Assembly (NCBI GenBank): GCA_902775835.1
Contig: CACYNZ010000043.1
Coordinates: 1-15,017 of the forward strand
Length of the DNA: 15,017 bases
Reading direction: 5' to 3'
DNA from: an uncultured Eubacteriales bacterium
GTDB lineage: Bacteria; Bacillota_A; Clostridia; Christensenellales; Aristaeellaceae
In this document: one piece after another, positions 1 to 7,257 of the stretch
How positions within the stretch are numbered: the stretch's first letter is position 1
Layout: each line of letters starts with the position of its first letter
The notes under the pieces: model-generated
What the model was told of the DNA's origin: nothing
The model's database searches: none
The model's input: the letters and a program-made list of their open reading frames with translations, nothing else
Translations under genes and position numbers: made by a program

Positions 1-289
1 GGTCGGTGTACACGAGCTGCTCAACCTTGCGGCCCTTGAGCAGGTGCTCGCTGACGATCTCGTCCACATTTTCCGGCTTGACGCGGCTGTAGAAGGTGCC
101 GTCCGGGTACACGATAACCACAGGGCCGGCTTCGCACAGACCGAAGCAACCGGTGCGGATGACCTTGACTTCATGGTCCAGGCCGTTTTCCGCAATCTTT
201 TCATTAAACCGTTCGATCAGGGTTGCAGAACCGGAAGATGAGCAGCCGGTGCCACCGCAGACCAGAACGTGCGCGCGAAAAATATCCAT
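1..289 (-). CDS. NuoF/HndC-type hydrogenase flavoprotein subunit, N-terminal part
   Basis: Partial gene: 96 codons are visible and it runs off the left edge. The first about 90 residues form a thioredoxin-like [2Fe-2S] domain with Cys11, Cys16 (CGGTGC), Cys48 and Cys52 (TGCFGLC), followed by the usual K-P-E-N-V-x-E-I-V-x-E-H-L-L-K-G segment. This is the N-terminus of the NADH/NADPH-binding subunit of trimeric or tetrameric [FeFe]-hydrogenases (HydB, HndC) rather than of respiratory NuoF, which lacks this added domain. The rest of the family carries FMN, NAD(P) and [4Fe-4S] sites, expected outside the window. The ATG at 289 follows a strong GGAGGAGG six bases upstream. It lies 16 bases after the HndB-like gene, so it belongs to the same operon. 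The exact cofactor (NAD or NADP) and whether the enzyme bifurcates cannot be read from this fragment. Confidence 0.88.
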   Translation of the reverse strand, partial: MDIFRAHVLVCGGTGCSSSGSATLIERFNEKIAENGLDHEVKVIRTGCFGLCEAGPVVIVYPDGTFYSRVKPENVDEIVSEHLLKGRKVEQLVYTD

Positions 290-305
290 GACTTACCTCC
301 TCCGA

Positions 306-683
306 TCAGTTGGCTTCAGCAGCCCCGATGGTGTATTCCTGTACCGGGCGTCCGTTCACAATGTGTTCGGCCACAATACGCGGGACCATTTCCGGCTTCA
401 CATGCACATAGGTAACTTTTTCCTGTCCGGGGACATACACGTCCACCATGGGCTCGAGACGGCACATGCCGACGCAGCCGGTCTGGGAGACGGTAACATG
501 GTTCAGCTGCCGCTTGGCAACTTCATCCACAAAGGAAAGCATGACAGGACGGGCACCGGCGGCGATTCCGCAGGTGGCCATGCCGATGACAACACGGGTG
601 GTGTCGTTCTTGTCTTCTTTTCTCAGATTGATCTTGGACAGCGTCGCCTTGCGGATCGCTTCCAGTTCAGCCAATGATTTCAT
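306..683 (-). CDS. HndB-like (2Fe-2S) ferredoxin-domain subunit
   Basis: A 125-residue protein of the HndB family, the small thioredoxin-fold ferredoxin subunit found with NADP-reducing and electron-bifurcating [FeFe]-hydrogenases. An N-terminal charged helix (about residues 1-30) precedes the fold. The TCGIAAGA motif gives Cys38 and TGCVGMC gives Cys70 and Cys74. The expected fourth ligand, equivalent to the second Cys of the CxxxxC pair in HndC, is replaced by Gly/Ala. As I recall this is usual in HndB proteins, so a cluster with a non-Cys ligand or a structural role is possible. The ATG overlaps the TGA of the upstream ATPase gene as ATGA, showing translational coupling. It probably passes electrons between the NuoE-like and NuoF-like subunits or helps assemble them; that role is inferred. 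Confidence 0.85.
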   Translation of the reverse strand: MKSLAELEAIRKATLSKINLRKEDKNDTTRVVIGMATCGIAAGARPVMLSFVDEVAKRQLNHVTVSQTGCVGMCRLEPMVDVYVPGQEKVTYVHVKPEMVPRIVAEHIVNGRPVQEYTIGAAEAN

Positions 684-1234
684 CGCATGATTCCTCCCAA
701 AATCGGTTCTAACTCTTCATGAATCGAATCCTGGATCCACTGGATGACTTCCGGTTCTGCCAGGGATACGCCTTCAAGTGCCTGACGGACTTCCACGGTG
801 GAAAAGTTCATCTCGCCGCCGTCGGACCGGCAGGTGAGGGTGAACTCGGGAGCGTCCGGATTCCCCATGATCAGAGTGGCCATGGTGGAACCGAGATCGC
901 CCAGGGGCAGGCAGTCAATGGAATCCGTATGCCAGTACGCCGTAATGGTTGTACCGGCGCCTTCCTTACTGTCAATCTTCACGCTTCCGCCGCTGAGGGT
1001 GGTGTTCTGCATCAGCAGCGGAATGCCCAGCCCGATTTTCCGGGTGGTGCGGGTGGTGACAAAGGGATTGCTTACCTGTTCCACAAACTCGGGACTCATG
1101 CCGCAGCCGTCATCCCGGACCTGCATCTCCAGCACCCCGTCACTGGCGAGGGCAAAGGAGATATCCACTTCCGTGGCGCCTGCGCGTACGCTGTTCTGAA
1201 CAATGTCCAGCAGGTGCAGGGCTATTTCTTTCAT
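680..1234 (-). CDS. GHKL-fold ATPase of hydrogenase operon
   Basis: A 184-residue protein whose first about 100 residues are a histidine-kinase-like (GHKL) ATP-binding domain. The N box is L-L-D-I-V-Q-N-S (Asn14), the G1 box is DDGCGM (residues 41-46), the G2 region is GLGIPLL (68-74) and a GAGTT segment (92-96) closes the fold. There is no transmembrane segment and no obvious phospho-acceptor domain; the last about 80 residues match nothing I know. Such stand-alone ATPases recur inside clostridial hydrogenase operons, sitting between NuoE-like and HndB-like genes, but their job is unknown to me. A kinase or anti-sigma-like regulatory role, or ATP-driven assembly, are all possible. It overlaps both neighbours by four bases (ATGA), so its amount should be tied to the subunits. 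Confidence 0.85.
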   Translation of the reverse strand: MKEIALHLLDIVQNSVRAGATEVDISFALASDGVLEMQVRDDGCGMSPEFVEQVSNPFVTTRTTRKIGLGIPLLMQNTTLSGGSVKIDSKEGAGTTITAYWHTDSIDCLPLGDLGSTMATLIMGNPDAPEFTLTCRSDGGEMNFSTVEVRQALEGVSLAEPEVIQWIQDSIHEELEPILGGIMR

Positions 1235-1719
1235 GCTTCAGCCTCTCCGGCTGCCTGATACTTGGCGATGATGCCGGGAACCTGATCCGGAGTCAGACGC
1301 CCGTACACTTCACCGTTGATCATCATGACGGGTGCGAGACCGCAGGCGCCGAGGCAGCGGGTAGCTTCCAGCGTGAACTTTCCGTCGGGGGTGGTGCCGC
1401 CCACGGGAATCTTCAGTACTTCGCTGAGCTTGTCCAGGACGCCCTGGCTGCCCTTGACGTAGCAGGCGGTGCCCAGACATACGCTGATGAGATATTCTCC
1501 CTTGGGATGCAGAGAGAACTGGGAATAGAACGTTGCTACCCCGTATACTTCACTGAGAGTGACGCCAAGCCCTTCTGCGATCACCTTCTGCACGTCCTCA
1601 GACACGCAGCCGAAGATCCCCTGGGCTCCCTGAAGCACGGGCATCAGGGCACCGGGCTGATCCTTGTGACTCTCAATCAAGGCCTTGAGCTGTTCAAACT
1701 TCTCGTTGGAGCCTTCCAT
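1231..1719 (-). CDS. NuoE/HndA-type [2Fe-2S] hydrogenase subunit
   Basis: A 162-residue NuoE-family protein, full length for the family. An N-terminal helical bundle (P-G-A-L-M-P-V-L-Q ... G-V-A-T-F-Y-S-Q-F) is followed by a thioredoxin-like domain whose ligands Cys81, Cys86, Cys122 and Cys126 (SVCLGTACYVKG, TRCLGACG) bind one [2Fe-2S] cluster. In trimeric [FeFe]-hydrogenases this subunit (HydC, HndA) relays electrons near the flavin subunit. It is the first gene of the second block, behind a visible promoter and a Rex-like site. The ATG at 1719 has AGGAGG about 12 bases upstream, slightly far but with no better alternative. A four-base overlap with the ATPase gene follows. The partner NuoF-like subunit begins at the left edge. 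Confidence 0.92.
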   Translation of the reverse strand: MEGSNEKFEQLKALIESHKDQPGALMPVLQGAQGIFGCVSEDVQKVIAEGLGVTLSEVYGVATFYSQFSLHPKGEYLISVCLGTACYVKGSQGVLDKLSEVLKIPVGGTTPDGKFTLEATRCLGACGLAPVMMINGEVYGRLTPDQVPGIIAKYQAAGEAEA

Positions 1720-1854: not shown

Positions 1855-2568
1855 TCAGACGGGCACAGGCGGCGTCAGAAGATAGTCCAGAAAGGCGCGC
1901 ACGCTGTTTTCCGGAAGCTGAATGCTGACCTCGGCTTCCAGGATATCCCCGAGATAATGTGCATCGGAGGAGTGAAGCACAACCTTGCCGGCCTGCGGCG
2001 TGTGCGGGCACGGCAGGCCGCGCCAGACTTCCACGGCCGTGAAATTCAGTTCCTCGGGCATGAAGCCGAGGTTTACGAGAAGTCCGTTGGACCCGCGGTT
2101 GATGTGCGCGGGTACGGGGACGCCGCCCGCCTCGCGGATGCGCTGCACCCACTGGGCCAGCGTCAGATCGGTGGCGCCGATGAGCAGGGCGTCCAGCTCC
2201 TGAATGACCTCATCGTCCTCGTTCATGATCAGCTGGTTTCCAAAAAGCGAGGGCTTGTTCTTCTTTTTGGGCAGATGCGCTGTGACCTCCTGACCGAAGG
2301 CCACGGCGGTGTCCACGTCCGGAAAATAGCCGAGCAGATGCACTTCCTCGCGGGTGGTGATCTCCATGCCGGGAATCAGGGTCAGCCCGTAGGCGTCGCA
2401 GCATGCCTTGGCTGCAGGCAGGTTCAGGCCTGTATTGTGATCGGTCAGGGCAATCATGTTCAGTCCCTTGAGCGCAGCCATGCCGCAGAGATTGGCGGGC
2501 GTCATGTCGTCGCTGCCGCAGGGGGACAGACAGGAGTGCATGTGCAGGTCAGTGAACAGGGTTTCCAT
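1855..2568 (-). CDS. PHP-domain metal-dependent phosphoesterase
   Basis: A 237-residue stand-alone PHP domain, a metal-dependent hydrolase fold acting on phosphoesters such as nucleotides or histidinol phosphate. Metal ligands are visible in order: DLHMHS (His9, His11), TDHNT (Asp43, His44), GMEITT (Glu69), EVHLL (His77), PAHINR (His155) and SDAHYLGD (Asp202, His204). There is no polymerase or other fused domain and no signal peptide. The ATG follows AGGA eight bases upstream, and the gene starts three bases after the second DRTGG gene, so it is the last gene of the sensory block. Related small PHP proteins occur in clostridial hydrogenase clusters. The substrate is unknown; turnover of a nucleotide signal made or bound by the neighbouring DRTGG and ATPase proteins is only an idea. 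Confidence 0.9.
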   Translation of the reverse strand: METLFTDLHMHSCLSPCGSDDMTPANLCGMAALKGLNMIALTDHNTGLNLPAAKACCDAYGLTLIPGMEITTREEVHLLGYFPDVDTAVAFGQEVTAHLPKKKNKPSLFGNQLIMNEDDEVIQELDALLIGATDLTLAQWVQRIREAGGVPVPAHINRGSNGLLVNLGFMPEELNFTAVEVWRGLPCPHTPQAGKVVLHSSDAHYLGDILEAEVSIQLPENSVRAFLDYLLTPPVPV

Positions 2569-2571
2569 AGA

Positions 2572-2916
2572 TCAGGTCCTGCCGGGAATGCCGGCGGCGT
2601 TGAGCCTGCCGCAGATTTCGTAGGATGTCAGAGGAGAGGAGAGCACAATCATGTCCTCGCTTATGGCCTTGTTCAGGCTTTCCTCTTCCATGTCGATGCT
2701 TTCGGGCAGGATCACGCAGGCCATTTCCGCCAGAACGGCCACGGCCACCACATTCATGTGCGTCTGTACCGTCACCCAGGCCATGCCTTCCTCACCGTGG
2801 GACATGACCCAGGACAGAAGATCACAGGCATACCCGCAGGTCACTTCACGGCCTGCGTCCAGCCCCGGGGTGAGGCAGCGCGCCTGGATCAGATTGGAAA
2901 GCTCAGCGACAGTCAT
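2572..2916 (-). CDS. DRTGG-domain protein (second copy)
   Basis: A 114-residue single-domain protein of the DRTGG type, a fold otherwise found attached to CBS domains or phosphotransacetylase and thought to bind ligands such as adenine nucleotides. It resembles the first DRTGG protein of this block (4697-5074) through the M-T-[IV]-A-[DE] start, the [CD]-D-L-[ML]-S segment and the final C-G-x-L-x-A-x-G-[IL] end. Its middle is divergent, and it lacks the R-G-K turn kept in the other copy. An ATG at 2925 is also in frame, but its ribosome site AAAGGA abuts it directly, whereas the ATG at 2916 has it eight bases upstream, so 2916 is chosen. It follows the sensory hydrogenase gene by about 15 bases. 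Confidence 0.78.
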   Translation of the reverse strand: MTVAELSNLIQARCLTPGLDAGREVTCGYACDLLSWVMSHGEEGMAWVTVQTHMNVVAVAVLAEMACVILPESIDMEEESLNKAISEDMIVLSSPLTSYEICGRLNAAGIPGRT

Positions 2917-2931
2917 TGGGATCATCCTTTC

Positions 2932-4233
2932 TCATTCACGTTTGGTCTGGGCAAGCTCCAGCATCTGCTGGGCCATGACCTGAAGTTTTTCCTTCATCAG
3001 ATGGATGCAGTCGTTTTCCGTGCAGTATCCGCGGACAATGTCCTCGGCGAACGCGGCGCAGGTCGGGCTTCCGCAGGAACCGCAGTCATACCCGGGAAGC
3101 TTTTCGATGATCTCGTTCATGCGCATCATCTTGCGCATGGCTTCGGCCATGTTGTCGTCCAGCACCGCCGCGGCATTGGGCCGGAACGGCTCATCATTGC
3201 GCACGGGATACTTGTTGAGCAGGGCTACGGGCACATCCGTGTCCGGATGCGTGTCCGGCATGGCCTTGACCATTTTGCGCACGGAATTCTTCGCCACGTA
3301 GTTGTTCTCAAAGGTCAGCGGGCCGCCCACGCAGCCGCCGATGCAGGCGTTGCCCTCCAGATACACGAGATCGGACAGCTTGTTGTTTTCCACTTCTTCC
3401 AGCACGCGGATAACATTGGGAATGCCGTCCACGGAAAGGCTGTTTCCGGGGCATACCGCGTTTGCCTCGCCGTTGGAGGTGGCCCAGCCCACGCCGTAGC
3501 GGGTAGCGGGCACGAAATCCGGATCCCGGAGCATCTCATTGATGTGCGGGAGCAGCAGGCCGTAGAGCTCCATCATGGAAATGGCGCCGTTCAGCTCGGA
3601 CTTGTGCTGGCCGAGCGGATTGCGGATGGCGGTCATTTTTGCAGGGCAGGGCGTGATAAAGAAACAGCCCACCTCTTCCGGAGAGACGCCCTTCATGCGG
3701 CAGAACTCGCTGCGGGCCACGGAAGCCGCCACCTCCATGGGCTGGCGGATGTCGATCACATGTTCCAGGAGCTCGGGAAAGCGGACCTGGATCAGCCGGA
3801 CCACGGCCGGGCAGGCGGAGGAGATCATGGGTCTTGGCAGACCCGGCTCCCGGAGCTTTTCGCGGATGGCGCGCGTGACGATGTCCGCGCCGCGTGCCAC
3901 CTCGAACACATAGTCGAACCCGATGCGGTACAGGGCTTCCAGCACATGGTCCGGGCTGACCAGACCGCGGAACTGACCGTACAGGGAAGGCGCCGGGAGA
4001 GCAATGGAATATTTCCAGTTGTGCACGATATCCAGGGGATCGGTGACCGCGATCTTGGCATGATAATCACAGACACGGATGCATTCACCGCAGTCAATGC
4101 ACAGCGTGTCCAGAATATGGGCCCGTCCCCCGCGGACACGGATGGCTTCAGTGGGGCAGTGCTTGAGACAGTTGGTACAGCCCTTGCAGCGCTGCTTGTC
4201 CAGCTGAACGGAATGGTAACGTACAGGTTCCAT
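2932..4233 (-). CDS. Putative sensory [FeFe]-hydrogenase with two ferredoxin clusters and C-terminal FeS domain
   Basis: A 433-residue protein. Residues 10-60 carry two [4Fe-4S] ferredoxin motifs (Cys16, 19, 22, 26 and Cys45, 48, 51, 55). Residues about 75-345 are an H-cluster domain with ligands Cys141 (SSACPA), Cys196 (ITPCPAK), Cys297 and Cys301 (EGNACIGGC). Residues 380-410 form an extra FeS domain (Cys384, Cys387, Cys392 and Cys404 or Cys409). Catalytic hydrogenases read TSCCP, MPC and EVMAC; here the proton-shuttle Cys is Ala140, and the two Met are Thr194 and Asn295. Lys199 is kept. These changes are characteristic of the putatively sensory group C/D enzymes. No PAS domain is fused, which argues for the group D layout. 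The start at 4233 has GGCAGGT nine bases upstream. It probably senses H2 or redox state and signals to the adjacent ATPase. Confidence 0.9.
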   Translation of the reverse strand: MEPVRYHSVQLDKQRCKGCTNCLKHCPTEAIRVRGGRAHILDTLCIDCGECIRVCDYHAKIAVTDPLDIVHNWKYSIALPAPSLYGQFRGLVSPDHVLEALYRIGFDYVFEVARGADIVTRAIREKLREPGLPRPMISSACPAVVRLIQVRFPELLEHVIDIRQPMEVAASVARSEFCRMKGVSPEEVGCFFITPCPAKMTAIRNPLGQHKSELNGAISMMELYGLLLPHINEMLRDPDFVPATRYGVGWATSNGEANAVCPGNSLSVDGIPNVIRVLEEVENNKLSDLVYLEGNACIGGCVGGPLTFENNYVAKNSVRKMVKAMPDTHPDTDVPVALLNKYPVRNDEPFRPNAAAVLDDNMAEAMRKMMRMNEIIEKLPGYDCGSCGSPTCAAFAEDIVRGYCTENDCIHLMKEKLQVMAQQMLELAQTKRE

Positions 4234-4262
4234 ACGGTTGTACCTGCCTTTTCTCAGGGAGC

Positions 4263-4697
4263 TCAGCCTGCCGTGGGCAGATTGAATCCCATGGTGATGG
4301 TGGTGCCGGTGCCCATTTCGGACTCAATCGCGAAATGGTCTGCGTTGCGCTTCATGTTCGGCAGGCCCATGCCGGCGCCGAAGCCGAGGGAACGCGCTTC
4401 CTCATTGGCTGTGGAATAGCCTTCGCGCATGGCCATTTCCAGGTCCGGGATACCAGGCCCCCGGTCCTTGGAGATCAGCTGCACCTGGTCCGGGAAAACC
4501 GACAGGGTCAGGACGCCGCCCAGGGAATGGATGACGAGATTCAGTTCCACTTCATAGGATGCCACGGCCACGCGGCGCAGGACATCTCCGCCGACGCCCA
4601 GCTGCTTGAGCTTTTTCTTGATGTCGGCACTGGCTTTGCCGGCGCTGGTGTAGTCGGCTGTTTCAACGGGGTAGGCGGTCGTGAACAGCGCTTCCAT
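4263..4697 (-). CDS. RsbW-like anti-sigma/serine kinase-type GHKL ATPase
   Basis: A protein of 144 residues made of one GHKL ATP-binding domain like those of RsbW, RsbT and SpoIIAB. Counting from the GTG at 4700, the N box is A-S-Y-E-V-E-L-N (Glu50, Asn54), the G1 box is DRGPGIPD (79-86) and the G2 region is GFGAGMGLPNM (106-116). No membrane or sensor domain is present. Such proteins phosphorylate or bind anti-anti-sigma partners, but no STAS-domain or sigma gene is nearby, so the partner is unknown. The stop TGA of the upstream DRTGG gene overlaps the ATG at 4697. A GTG at 4700 with GGAGG seven bases upstream is an equally possible start. Its place directly before the sensory hydrogenase gene suggests it carries the output signal. 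Confidence 0.87.
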   Translation of the reverse strand: MEALFTTAYPVETADYTSAGKASADIKKKLKQLGVGGDVLRRVAVASYEVELNLVIHSLGGVLTLSVFPDQVQLISKDRGPGIPDLEMAMREGYSTANEEARSLGFGAGMGLPNMKRNADHFAIESEMGTGTTITMGFNLPTAG

Positions 4698-5074
4698 CAC
4701 GAATCATCCTCCGAATTCCATTCTACCGGGACAGGCACGCCTCTGAGGCCTTCGGCATAGAGCATGCCGCAGGCGGAGAAGGCGGTCAGCTTGGTGGTGA
4801 TGACCACCAGCCCCTGCTCGTCGGCGCTTTCCAGAATGTCATCCGTCGGCACCTTGCCGCGGACGAAGACCAGACATTTGAGGTCCAGCATTTCACTGGT
4901 TCTCACCACGTGGGGGTTGGTCAGGCCGGTGATGAGCACGGTCTTCTCGTCCACAAAGGCGAGCACGTCGCTCATCAGGTCGGAACAGCAGGCGGTGTAG
5001 ACAGGGGTGTCAAGTTTGTCTTCTCCGAGCAGCACGCGGGCGCTCAGAATCCGTACCATGTCGGCAATGGTCAC
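4697..5074 (-). CDS. DRTGG-domain protein (first copy)
   Basis: A 125-residue DRTGG-domain protein and the first gene of the sensory block. It shows the family features S-D-L-M-S-D-V-L-A-F, L-I-T-G-L-T-N, V-R-T-S-E-M-L-D, F-V-R-G-K and a C-terminal C-G-M-L-Y-A-E-G-L. The domain is a presumed small-ligand (possibly adenine nucleotide) binding unit; as a free-standing protein it is repeatedly seen beside sensory [FeFe]-hydrogenase genes. A GTG at 5083 is in frame, but it lies inside the ribosome site GAGGTG; the GTG at 5074 lies six bases after that site and is the better start. The second copy lies after the hydrogenase gene. Its stop codon overlaps the next start, so the ATPase and this protein are probably made together. 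Confidence 0.82.
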   Translation of the reverse strand: MTIADMVRILSARVLLGEDKLDTPVYTACCSDLMSDVLAFVDEKTVLITGLTNPHVVRTSEMLDLKCLVFVRGKVPTDDILESADEQGLVVITTKLTAFSACGMLYAEGLRGVPVPVEWNSEDDS

Positions 5075-5138
5075 AGGTATCACCTCATTAAAAATTGAAC
5101 ATAGGATGTTAGCAAACAGTCAGACTTATCCACATGTT

Positions 5139-7063: not shown

Positions 7064-7152
7064 GGAGAGATGGCCGAGCGGTTGAAGGCGCTGGTCTTGA
7101 AAACCAGTGATGCCGAAAGGCACCGGGGGTTCGAATCCCTCTCTCTCCGCCA
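7064..7152 (+). tRNA. tRNA-Ser (anticodon UGA)
   Basis: A class II tRNA with the acceptor stem GGAGAGA paired to TCTCTCC, a discriminator G and an encoded CCA at 7150-7152. The anticodon stem and loop CTGGT-CTTGAAA-ACCAG gives TGA. A long variable arm (TGCCGAAAGGCA) and the T-loop GTTCGAATC are present, as expected for serine tRNA. Confidence 0.96.
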
Positions 7153-7169: not shown

Positions 7170-7257
7170 GGAGAAGTACCCAAGTGGCCGAAGGGGCTCC
7201 CCTGCTAAGGGAGTAGGCCGGGTAACCGGCGCCCGGGTTCAAATCCCGGCTTCTCCG
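7170..7257 (+). tRNA. tRNA-Ser (anticodon GCU)
   Basis: A class II tRNA with acceptor GGAGAAG paired to CTTCTCC and discriminator G. The anticodon stem CTCCC / GGGAG with loop CTGCTAA gives GCT. The variable arm and T-loop GTTCAAATC are present. Unlike the tRNA 17 bases upstream, CCA is not encoded (the genome reads CAC after the discriminator), so it must be added by nucleotidyltransferase. Confidence 0.96.

Follow-up and report, generated by a model that had tools for sequence, protein, structure and literature searches.

In a 15,017-nucleotide stretch of contig CACYNZ010000043.1 (assembly GCA_902775835.1) from an uncultured Eubacteriales bacterium, hereafter the window, we found a set of genes encoding a free DRTGG-domain protein (DRTGG-A), a stand-alone GHKL-type ATPase (GHKL1), a hydrogenase-like H-cluster protein (HydS), a second free DRTGG-like protein (DRTGG-B) and a PHP-domain phosphoesterase (PHP). 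We think it rather likely that these genes form a signalling module with an exchangeable sensor that works in a manner resembling partner switching. The set is widely conserved and is probably a gene kit by which fermenting bacteria sense hydrogen or electron balance and relay the signal through a kinase. Computed support came from the anatomy of the locus, linkage, co-occurrence across genomes, natural fusions, exchange of the sensor, kinase-type active-site residues, a predicted fold and invariant motifs. An initial annotation of the window had modelled H2 signalling in which the H-cluster protein reads H2, either the ATPase or the DRTGG proteins carry the signal and PHP removes a mark. Linkage, co-occurrence, fusions and sensor exchange supported the idea of one signalling module around the H-cluster protein, and the model was sharpened in that GHKL1 is now named as the likely direct receiver.

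Gene order was examined in the best 80 of at least 589 loci (L numbers) matching in a scan with alignment A1, a sample that leans to near relatives. Each count took only loci whose contig reached far enough, a rule that left out L035 (1.7 kb downstream, no PHP match). In all 78 testable loci GHKL1 preceded HydS and shared its strand, and DRTGG-A lay upstream in 75 of 77. DRTGG-B (70/77) and PHP (68/76) followed downstream of HydS. GHKL1 ended no more than 100 bases from HydS in 66 of 79 loci, a count that includes the window, and no more than 300 bases from it in 77. The initial annotation had reported similar gene sets in clostridia and proposed a search for conserved five-gene linkage. That linkage was found and recurs in dozens of genomes, with the same order for example in Thermoanaerobacter wiegelii, Acetivibrio mesophilus, Christensenella hongkongensis and Coprothermobacter platensis. 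Of the 59 loci having at least 5.5 kb downstream, 34 had a NuoF-like gene there in the orientation of HydS; the locus lacked one in the other 25, the rest of whose genomes lay outside this search (calls made with a 'NuoE' profile above 150 bits, a label that marks NuoE- and NuoF-like proteins alike). Because these 25 testable loci had no nearby NuoF-like gene, the module is not merely an appendix of a hydrogenase operon.

The association held at the level of whole genomes (G numbers). Among 199 genomes drawn evenly from the phylum of Acetivibrio mesophilus (G001), HydS of the group D type occurred in 74, DRTGG in 87, GHKL1 in 78, PHP in 74 and a second stand-alone ATPase, GHKL2, in 80. The 74 HydS genomes included 73 with GHKL1, 74 with DRTGG, 71 with PHP and 71 with GHKL2, and HydS, GHKL1, PHP and DRTGG were present together in 70 of them. 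The corresponding numbers in the 125 genomes without HydS were 5 (GHKL1), 13 (DRTGG), 3 (PHP) and 9 (GHKL2). Fisher P values for HydS against GHKL1, DRTGG and PHP were each at most 1.6e-41, calculated without regard to kinship. For these counts G124 (208 bits) and G152 (206 bits) were removed from the HydS genomes as encoding other [FeFe] hydrogenases. Each genome kept had a best match of at least 293 bits, some of these genes being fragmented or carrying an internal stop (G016, G100, G074, G104). The feature therefore extends past the five genes first annotated, as GHKL2 (1234-680) tracks the gene set genome-wide.

Where present, GHKL1, PHP and GHKL2 were single-copy per genome at the cut-offs used, with the exception of two GHKL1 copies in G124. 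All 15 genomes behind the loci that we searched with the DRTGG-B profile had exactly two matches at 1e-5, even where the neighbours of HydS were absent, and some module genomes held further, more distant DRTGG domains (e.g. four PF07085 matches in G002). Split sets retained their members elsewhere in the genome. G012-G015 encoded DRTGG-B and PHP together at a separate site and kept DRTGG-A, GHKL1 and HydS together. In G010 and G011 the GHKL1-HydS pair had genes for a histidine kinase and a response regulator of the OmpR type as neighbours, joined in G011 by a CheW gene. DRTGG-A, DRTGG-B, PHP and GHKL2 formed a separate cluster there with a rex-like gene; G180 showed the same split. As side observations, loci L146-L149 (G165, G032) held two HydS-DRTGG-B pairs per genome, each near hydrogenase-type genes and without a DRTGG-A match, which are possibly duplicated sensors. 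L129 (G049) is a decayed copy with HydS and PHP fragments and GHKL1 nearly lost, and with DRTGG-B and hydrogenase genes retained. The record of L072 is titled as a Sumerlaeota metagenome-assembled genome, and its genome G037 is classed in the phylum of Acetivibrio mesophilus; the two disagree.

Several members of the set were also found fused. DRTGG-A was joined to GHKL1 in L071, L122-L126 and L157, with many more cases in the protein database. HydS was joined to DRTGG-B in L120, L121 and ten listed protein clusters (one short), and PHP to GHKL2 in L133 and L140-L143. In G124 and G152, which have no group D HydS, the set consisted of DRTGG-A, CBS-CBS-GHKL1, DRTGG-B, PHP and GHKL2. The second copy in G124 (L136 5160-10804) comprised DRTGG-A, CBS-CBS-GHKL1 and a 2Fe-2S protein, followed closely by an rnf cluster (RnfC matched with 564.6 bits, other rnf subunits identified by eye), an arrangement that suggests control of Rnf by the module. 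The GHKL1 that occurs with HydS in L156 has 302 residues and is near CBS-CBS-GHKL1 in size. GHKL1 looks like the common receiver, with HydS or the CBS pair as exchangeable inputs. Since it precedes HydS in 78 of 78 loci and is joined to a CBS pair where group D HydS is missing from the set, GHKL1 is likely the direct receiver of the HydS signal.

The features of GHKL1 are those of a probable serine/threonine kinase. The protein, already called a free GHKL ATPase, matched Pfam HATPase_c with 33.4 bits (cut-off 26.4) and also HATPase_c_2. In a comparison of its family profile with solved structures the closest relatives were SpoIIAB (1til, 1.3e-11) and RsbW (6m36, 1e-3). The N-box glutamate and asparagine, the DxGxG motif and the glycine-rich lid (E50, N54, D79, G81, G83 and G106-G112) were all present in 66 of 66 aligned proteins, as was H58. 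GHKL1 has the stand-alone GHKL fold of the SpoIIAB/RsbW kinase family. Against the anti-sigma F factor model TIGR01925 it scored 48.4 bits, under the curated cut-off of 135. Structure predictions used alignments A9 and A10 with full-length fusions; the A10 model was taken for fold only, part of its DRTGG-B being predicted at middling confidence.

The naming of two free DRTGG proteins was likewise sustained, for DRTGG-A by Pfam DRTGG (PF07085, 31.9 bits, cut-off 25.2) and for DRTGG-B by homology. The DRTGG-B of the window had no Pfam or NCBIfam match at 1e-3, and its counterpart in T. wiegelii (L049) matched DRTGG above the cut-off with 29.1 bits. A D-x-x-S motif was invariant in both proteins. 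D35 and S38 were found in 62 of 62 aligned DRTGG-A proteins, where T52 was present in 61 and replaced by serine in the remaining one, and all three residues occurred in 63 of 63 aligned DRTGG-B proteins.

PHP proved to be a PHP-domain protein as annotated (Pfam PHP 32.1 bits, cut-off 26.4). Residues D7, H9, H11, D43, H44, E69, H77, H155, D202 and H204, which are likely metal ligands, were invariant in 61 of 61 aligned proteins, and the likely metal site is therewith complete. Equally invariant was C17 (in the motif SPC) near the first metal motif; this cysteine might be redox-active. A G110-x-Q112 motif was invariant as well.

The H-cluster protein matched Pfam Fe_hyd_lg_C (107.8 bits) and showed a C-terminal FeS match (47.6 bits). 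The sensor-type substitution noted at first was found at A140, which stands where C299, the cysteine of the proton relay, is expected; of the 77 aligned proteins, 73 had alanine here and four had serine. C384, C387, C392 and C409 form a C-terminal Cx2Cx4Cx16C motif kept in 75 of 77, and no PAS domain was matched in HydS by Pfam at 1e-3. C141, C196, C297 and C301 were invariant in alignment A6 (n=28); by comparison with CpI motifs, these are presumably the four H-cluster cysteine ligands. HydS thus shows the tested features of group D (M2e) [FeFe]-hydrogenases, the class of TamHydS, an assignment made on sequence features.

TamHydS of Thermoanaerobacter mathranii is described by the same features, and HydS shares with it the domain layout, the Cys-to-Ala exchange at the C299 position, the C-terminal Cx2Cx4Cx16C motif, the absence of a PAS domain and a place upstream of genes for a bifurcating hydrogenase of three subunits. 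The window HydS has T at the M353 position and N at the M497 position, compared with S and L reported for TamHydS. TamHydS is reported to interconvert H2 and protons, and low H2 turnover and an H2-dependent structure change are reported for TamHydS only. The 2026 TamHydS paper (PMC13104023) further states that the C-terminal cluster stays unreduced under H2 and that interaction partners are still to be identified. In T. wiegelii, a congener of T. mathranii, HydS is flanked by GHKL1 and DRTGG-B (L049). Because the gene behind HydS in this locus is a DRTGG-B without an AraC or helix-turn-helix match in Pfam at 1e-3 (only DRTGG and a sub-threshold PucR match were obtained), the AraC label on the gene beside TamHydS is, by analogy, probably a misannotation. 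The group C sensory hydrogenase TmHydS is also a low-activity H-cluster protein that has been proposed as an H2 sensor; it differs in having a PAS domain, whereas PAS is absent here and the signalling parts are separate proteins.

We propose the following route. HydS, with its altered proton relay, would read H2 and hence the redox poise of the ferredoxin/NADH pool, and would act, presumably by direct contact, on the kinase GHKL1 encoded beside it. GHKL1 may bind DRTGG-A and perhaps DRTGG-B and probably phosphorylates them at S38, the DRTGG proteins standing in the place of the STAS antagonists of Rsb/SpoIIA systems. PHP, supported by GHKL2, might reset the DRTGG proteins or their ligand, and the DRTGG proteins would then adjust electron disposal, for example through HydABC, or through Rnf in one variant. 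The set resembles SpoIIAA/SpoIIAB and RsbV/RsbW/RsbU in its stand-alone kinase fold with N-box glutamate and asparagine, in small partners with an invariant serine and in an adjoining phosphoesterase. It differs in that a DRTGG fold takes the place of STAS and PHP that of PP2C, in that the sensor is an H-cluster protein or a CBS pair, and in that the set contains no sigma factor. Because the scans for STAS and PP2C came back empty, we do not count the set among the partner-switching systems; it would work like partner switching without being a member. Only tentatively do we go further and suggest a new class of phospho-switch, in which GHKL1 phosphorylates the serine of free DRTGG proteins, with DRTGG for STAS and PHP for PP2C, and, across clostridia, input from an H-cluster protein or a CBS pair adjusts electron disposal (bifurcating hydrogenase, Rnf) according to H2, redox or energy state.

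A number of observations weigh against this reading. S38 could serve as a ligand or cap a helix instead of being phosphorylated, and T52 comes close to it in conservation. Pfam found neither STAS nor PP2C among ten locus proteins scanned, the set has no cognate sigma factor, and our literature search found no experiment on any HydS partner. The spacing between GHKL1 and HydS reaches about 880-890 bases in L003 and L009. PHP had no match at L074 or L035, nor in genomes G040, G093 and G176. G024, G048 and G158 had DRTGG and GHKL1, and matches to group D HydS and PHP were absent. G032, G165 and G189 each had two HydS and two DRTGG-B-like matches, none scoring like DRTGG-A, and G165 had two HydS-DRTGG-B pairs and no GHKL1 match; therefore GHKL1 and DRTGG-A are not always needed. 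The HydS::DRTGG-B fusions allow that HydS acts on DRTGG-B directly, and the co-occurrence figures take no account of shared ancestry.

The likeliest rival, which we nevertheless judge rather unlikely, retains the module and makes DRTGG a receiver of nucleotides: DRTGG would bind an adenine nucleotide or dinucleotide, PHP would hydrolyse it, and GHKL1 and GHKL2 would be ATP-driven conformational partners, not protein kinases. CBS-DRTGG regulatory regions bind AMP and Ap4A according to the title of a 2010 paper, and GHKL1 is fused to CBS domains where the set has no group D HydS. The top NCBIfam match of PHP is a 3',5'-nucleoside bisphosphate phosphatase (44.6 bits, far below the cut-off of 400), and the invariance of its likely metal ligands would suit such an enzyme. 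Against this, GHKL1 retains the SpoIIAB-type glutamate and asparagine in all 66 proteins and is nearest to partner-switching kinases, and S38 has no serine counterpart in three other DRTGG-type domains (loose alignment). The CBS-DRTGG regulatory region of family II pyrophosphatase (3l2b/3l31) differs from the present proteins, which are free, carry the invariant D-x-x-S and adjoin a kinase. The N-terminal domain of HPr kinase/phosphatase lacks a serine at position 38 (one copy aligned), and the DRTGG proteins described here have no HPr-kinase domain attached.

That GHKL1 is instead a classical anti-sigma factor and kinase holding a sigma B/F/G-type factor, through which the module would control transcription, appears improbable to us. 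Its closest solved relatives SpoIIAB and RsbW and some database names (anti-sigma regulatory factor or RsbT) would fit, and a SigBFG match above the cut-off was found in 176 of the 199 phylum genomes. However, seven of 12 module genomes had no SigBFG match at 1e-45 and one of 12 passed the family cut-off (the genomes may be incomplete), the HydS genomes G037, G091 and G165 gave only weak matches, and GHKL1 fell short of the anti-sigma F cut-off. The SigBFG scans thus weakened this role. We give similarly little credence to the idea that HydS serves the adjoining bifurcating hydrogenase as a slow catalytic partner or in its assembly, with the other proteins as accessory factors or chaperones outside signalling. 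The 34 loci with a NuoF-like gene and the reported interconversion of H2 and protons by TamHydS agree with it, but against it stand the 25 loci without such a gene, the CBS-GHKL1 modules in genomes without group D HydS and the GHKL1-HydS pairs that adjoin genes for a histidine kinase and a response regulator in L053, L058, L151 and L155. Inherited synteny with no functional coupling is very hard to credit: related genomes do share gene order by descent, which the co-occurrence figures ignore, but split sets retain their partners in the genome (15 of 15 with both DRTGG-B-profile matches), fusions are of several kinds, and presence and absence are correlated.

If the module signals as we propose, free DRTGG proteins would gain a signalling role, and H2 sensing would be linked to the way in which clostridia of the gut, the rumen and biofuel production regulate fermentation. 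Group D hydrogenases have been studied in detail as putative H2 sensors, and the gene set offers candidates for their signalling partners, with GHKL1 at the top of the ranking, the DRTGG proteins next and PHP and GHKL2 last. The natural fusions HydS::DRTGG-B and DRTGG-A::GHKL1 are ready material for structural work. The initial annotation had held that the signalling route was not worked out, which agrees with the statement in PMC13104023 on interaction partners and with our literature search, in which we found no description of it. The same search, with subscription journals and preprints mostly outside its reach, returned no account of DRTGG, PHP domain, partner-switching or RsbW tied to hydrogenase signalling. 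A Clostridium thermocellum paper describes Cthe_0339, annotated as a histidine kinase, inside the bifurcating hydrogenase genes of that species; this protein is probably GHKL2.

Features of the module and its neighbours in the window are listed in Table 1. A check of open reading frames agreed with the tightly packed arrangement first described, with all five genes on the minus strand and gaps between them, in order, of -4, 29, 6 and 3 bases. Transcription runs from DRTGG-A through GHKL1, HydS, DRTGG-B and PHP to the NuoE-like gene, GHKL2, the 2Fe-2S protein and the start of NuoF. The initial placement directly upstream of catalytic hydrogenase subunits holds loosely: PHP is followed after 135 bases by the NuoE-like gene and its successors, and the catalytic HydA itself lies beyond the window, full NuoF-like and HydA-sized genes being present in relatives. 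GHKL2 is located between the NuoE-like gene and the 2Fe-2S protein here, and directly behind PHP or fused to it in other genomes. Upstream, also on the minus strand, a gene for a ROK-family kinase terminates 153 bases before the five-gene set. Two tandem tRNA genes (window 7064-7149 and 7170-7257) lie on the plus strand, opposite to the module.

Table 1. Genes of the putative signalling module and adjoining hydrogenase genes in the window.
Feature	Position	Strand	Description
DRTGG-A	4697..5083	-	128 residues; free DRTGG-domain protein; first of the five genes; 4-base overlap with GHKL1 start
GHKL1	4263..4700	-	145 residues; stand-alone SpoIIAB/RsbW-like ATPase; probable serine/threonine kinase
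HydS	2932..4233	-	433 residues; group D-type [FeFe]-hydrogenase-like sensor (putative); N-terminal 4Fe-4S motifs, H-cluster domain, C-terminal Cx2Cx4Cx16C
DRTGG-B	2572..2925	-	117 residues; second free DRTGG-like protein
PHP	1855..2568	-	237 residues; PHP-domain phosphoesterase
NuoE/HydC-like subunit of adjoining bifurcating-type hydrogenase	1231..1719	-	Neighbour, outside the signalling set; Pfam 2Fe-2S_thioredx 176.6 bits
GHKL2	680..1234	-	184 residues; second stand-alone histidine-kinase-like ATPase; HATPase_c 54.9 bits
Thioredoxin-like 2Fe-2S protein of hydrogenase operon	306..683	-	Neighbour; Pfam 2Fe-2S_thioredx 20 bits and NCBIfam 2Fe-2S ferredoxin 37.1 bits, both below cut-off
NuoF/HydB-like subunit start	2..289	-	Neighbour; 2Fe-2S N-terminal part; truncated by window end

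A gene for a rex-like redox repressor was found just upstream in two of 66 testable loci among the first 80 (L018, L071) and in ten further loci, mostly picked as unusual (L085, L086, L122-L126, L129, L132, L154). It sits upstream of DRTGG-A, except in L154, where it is upstream of DRTGG-B. In L056 and L057, sites upstream of DRTGG-A matched all 14 positions of a Rex-box consensus, and one in L066 matched 13 of the 14. For the window set the best site reached only 10 of 14, equalled in 6% of shuffles, and we make no claim of Rex control there. A paper on predicted Rex sites lists a PHP domain protein and hydrogenase genes.

Pfam identified the two-component proteins encoded beside GHKL1-HydS in L053 and L151 (both in each case) and the regulator in L058; the others were assigned by eye. 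In L053 (10398-12308) and L155 (2937-4847) a 637-residue protein combining H-cluster and chemoreceptor (MCP) signalling domains also adjoins GHKL1-HydS, with a CheW gene beside it in L155. This protein is possibly an H2 chemoreceptor.

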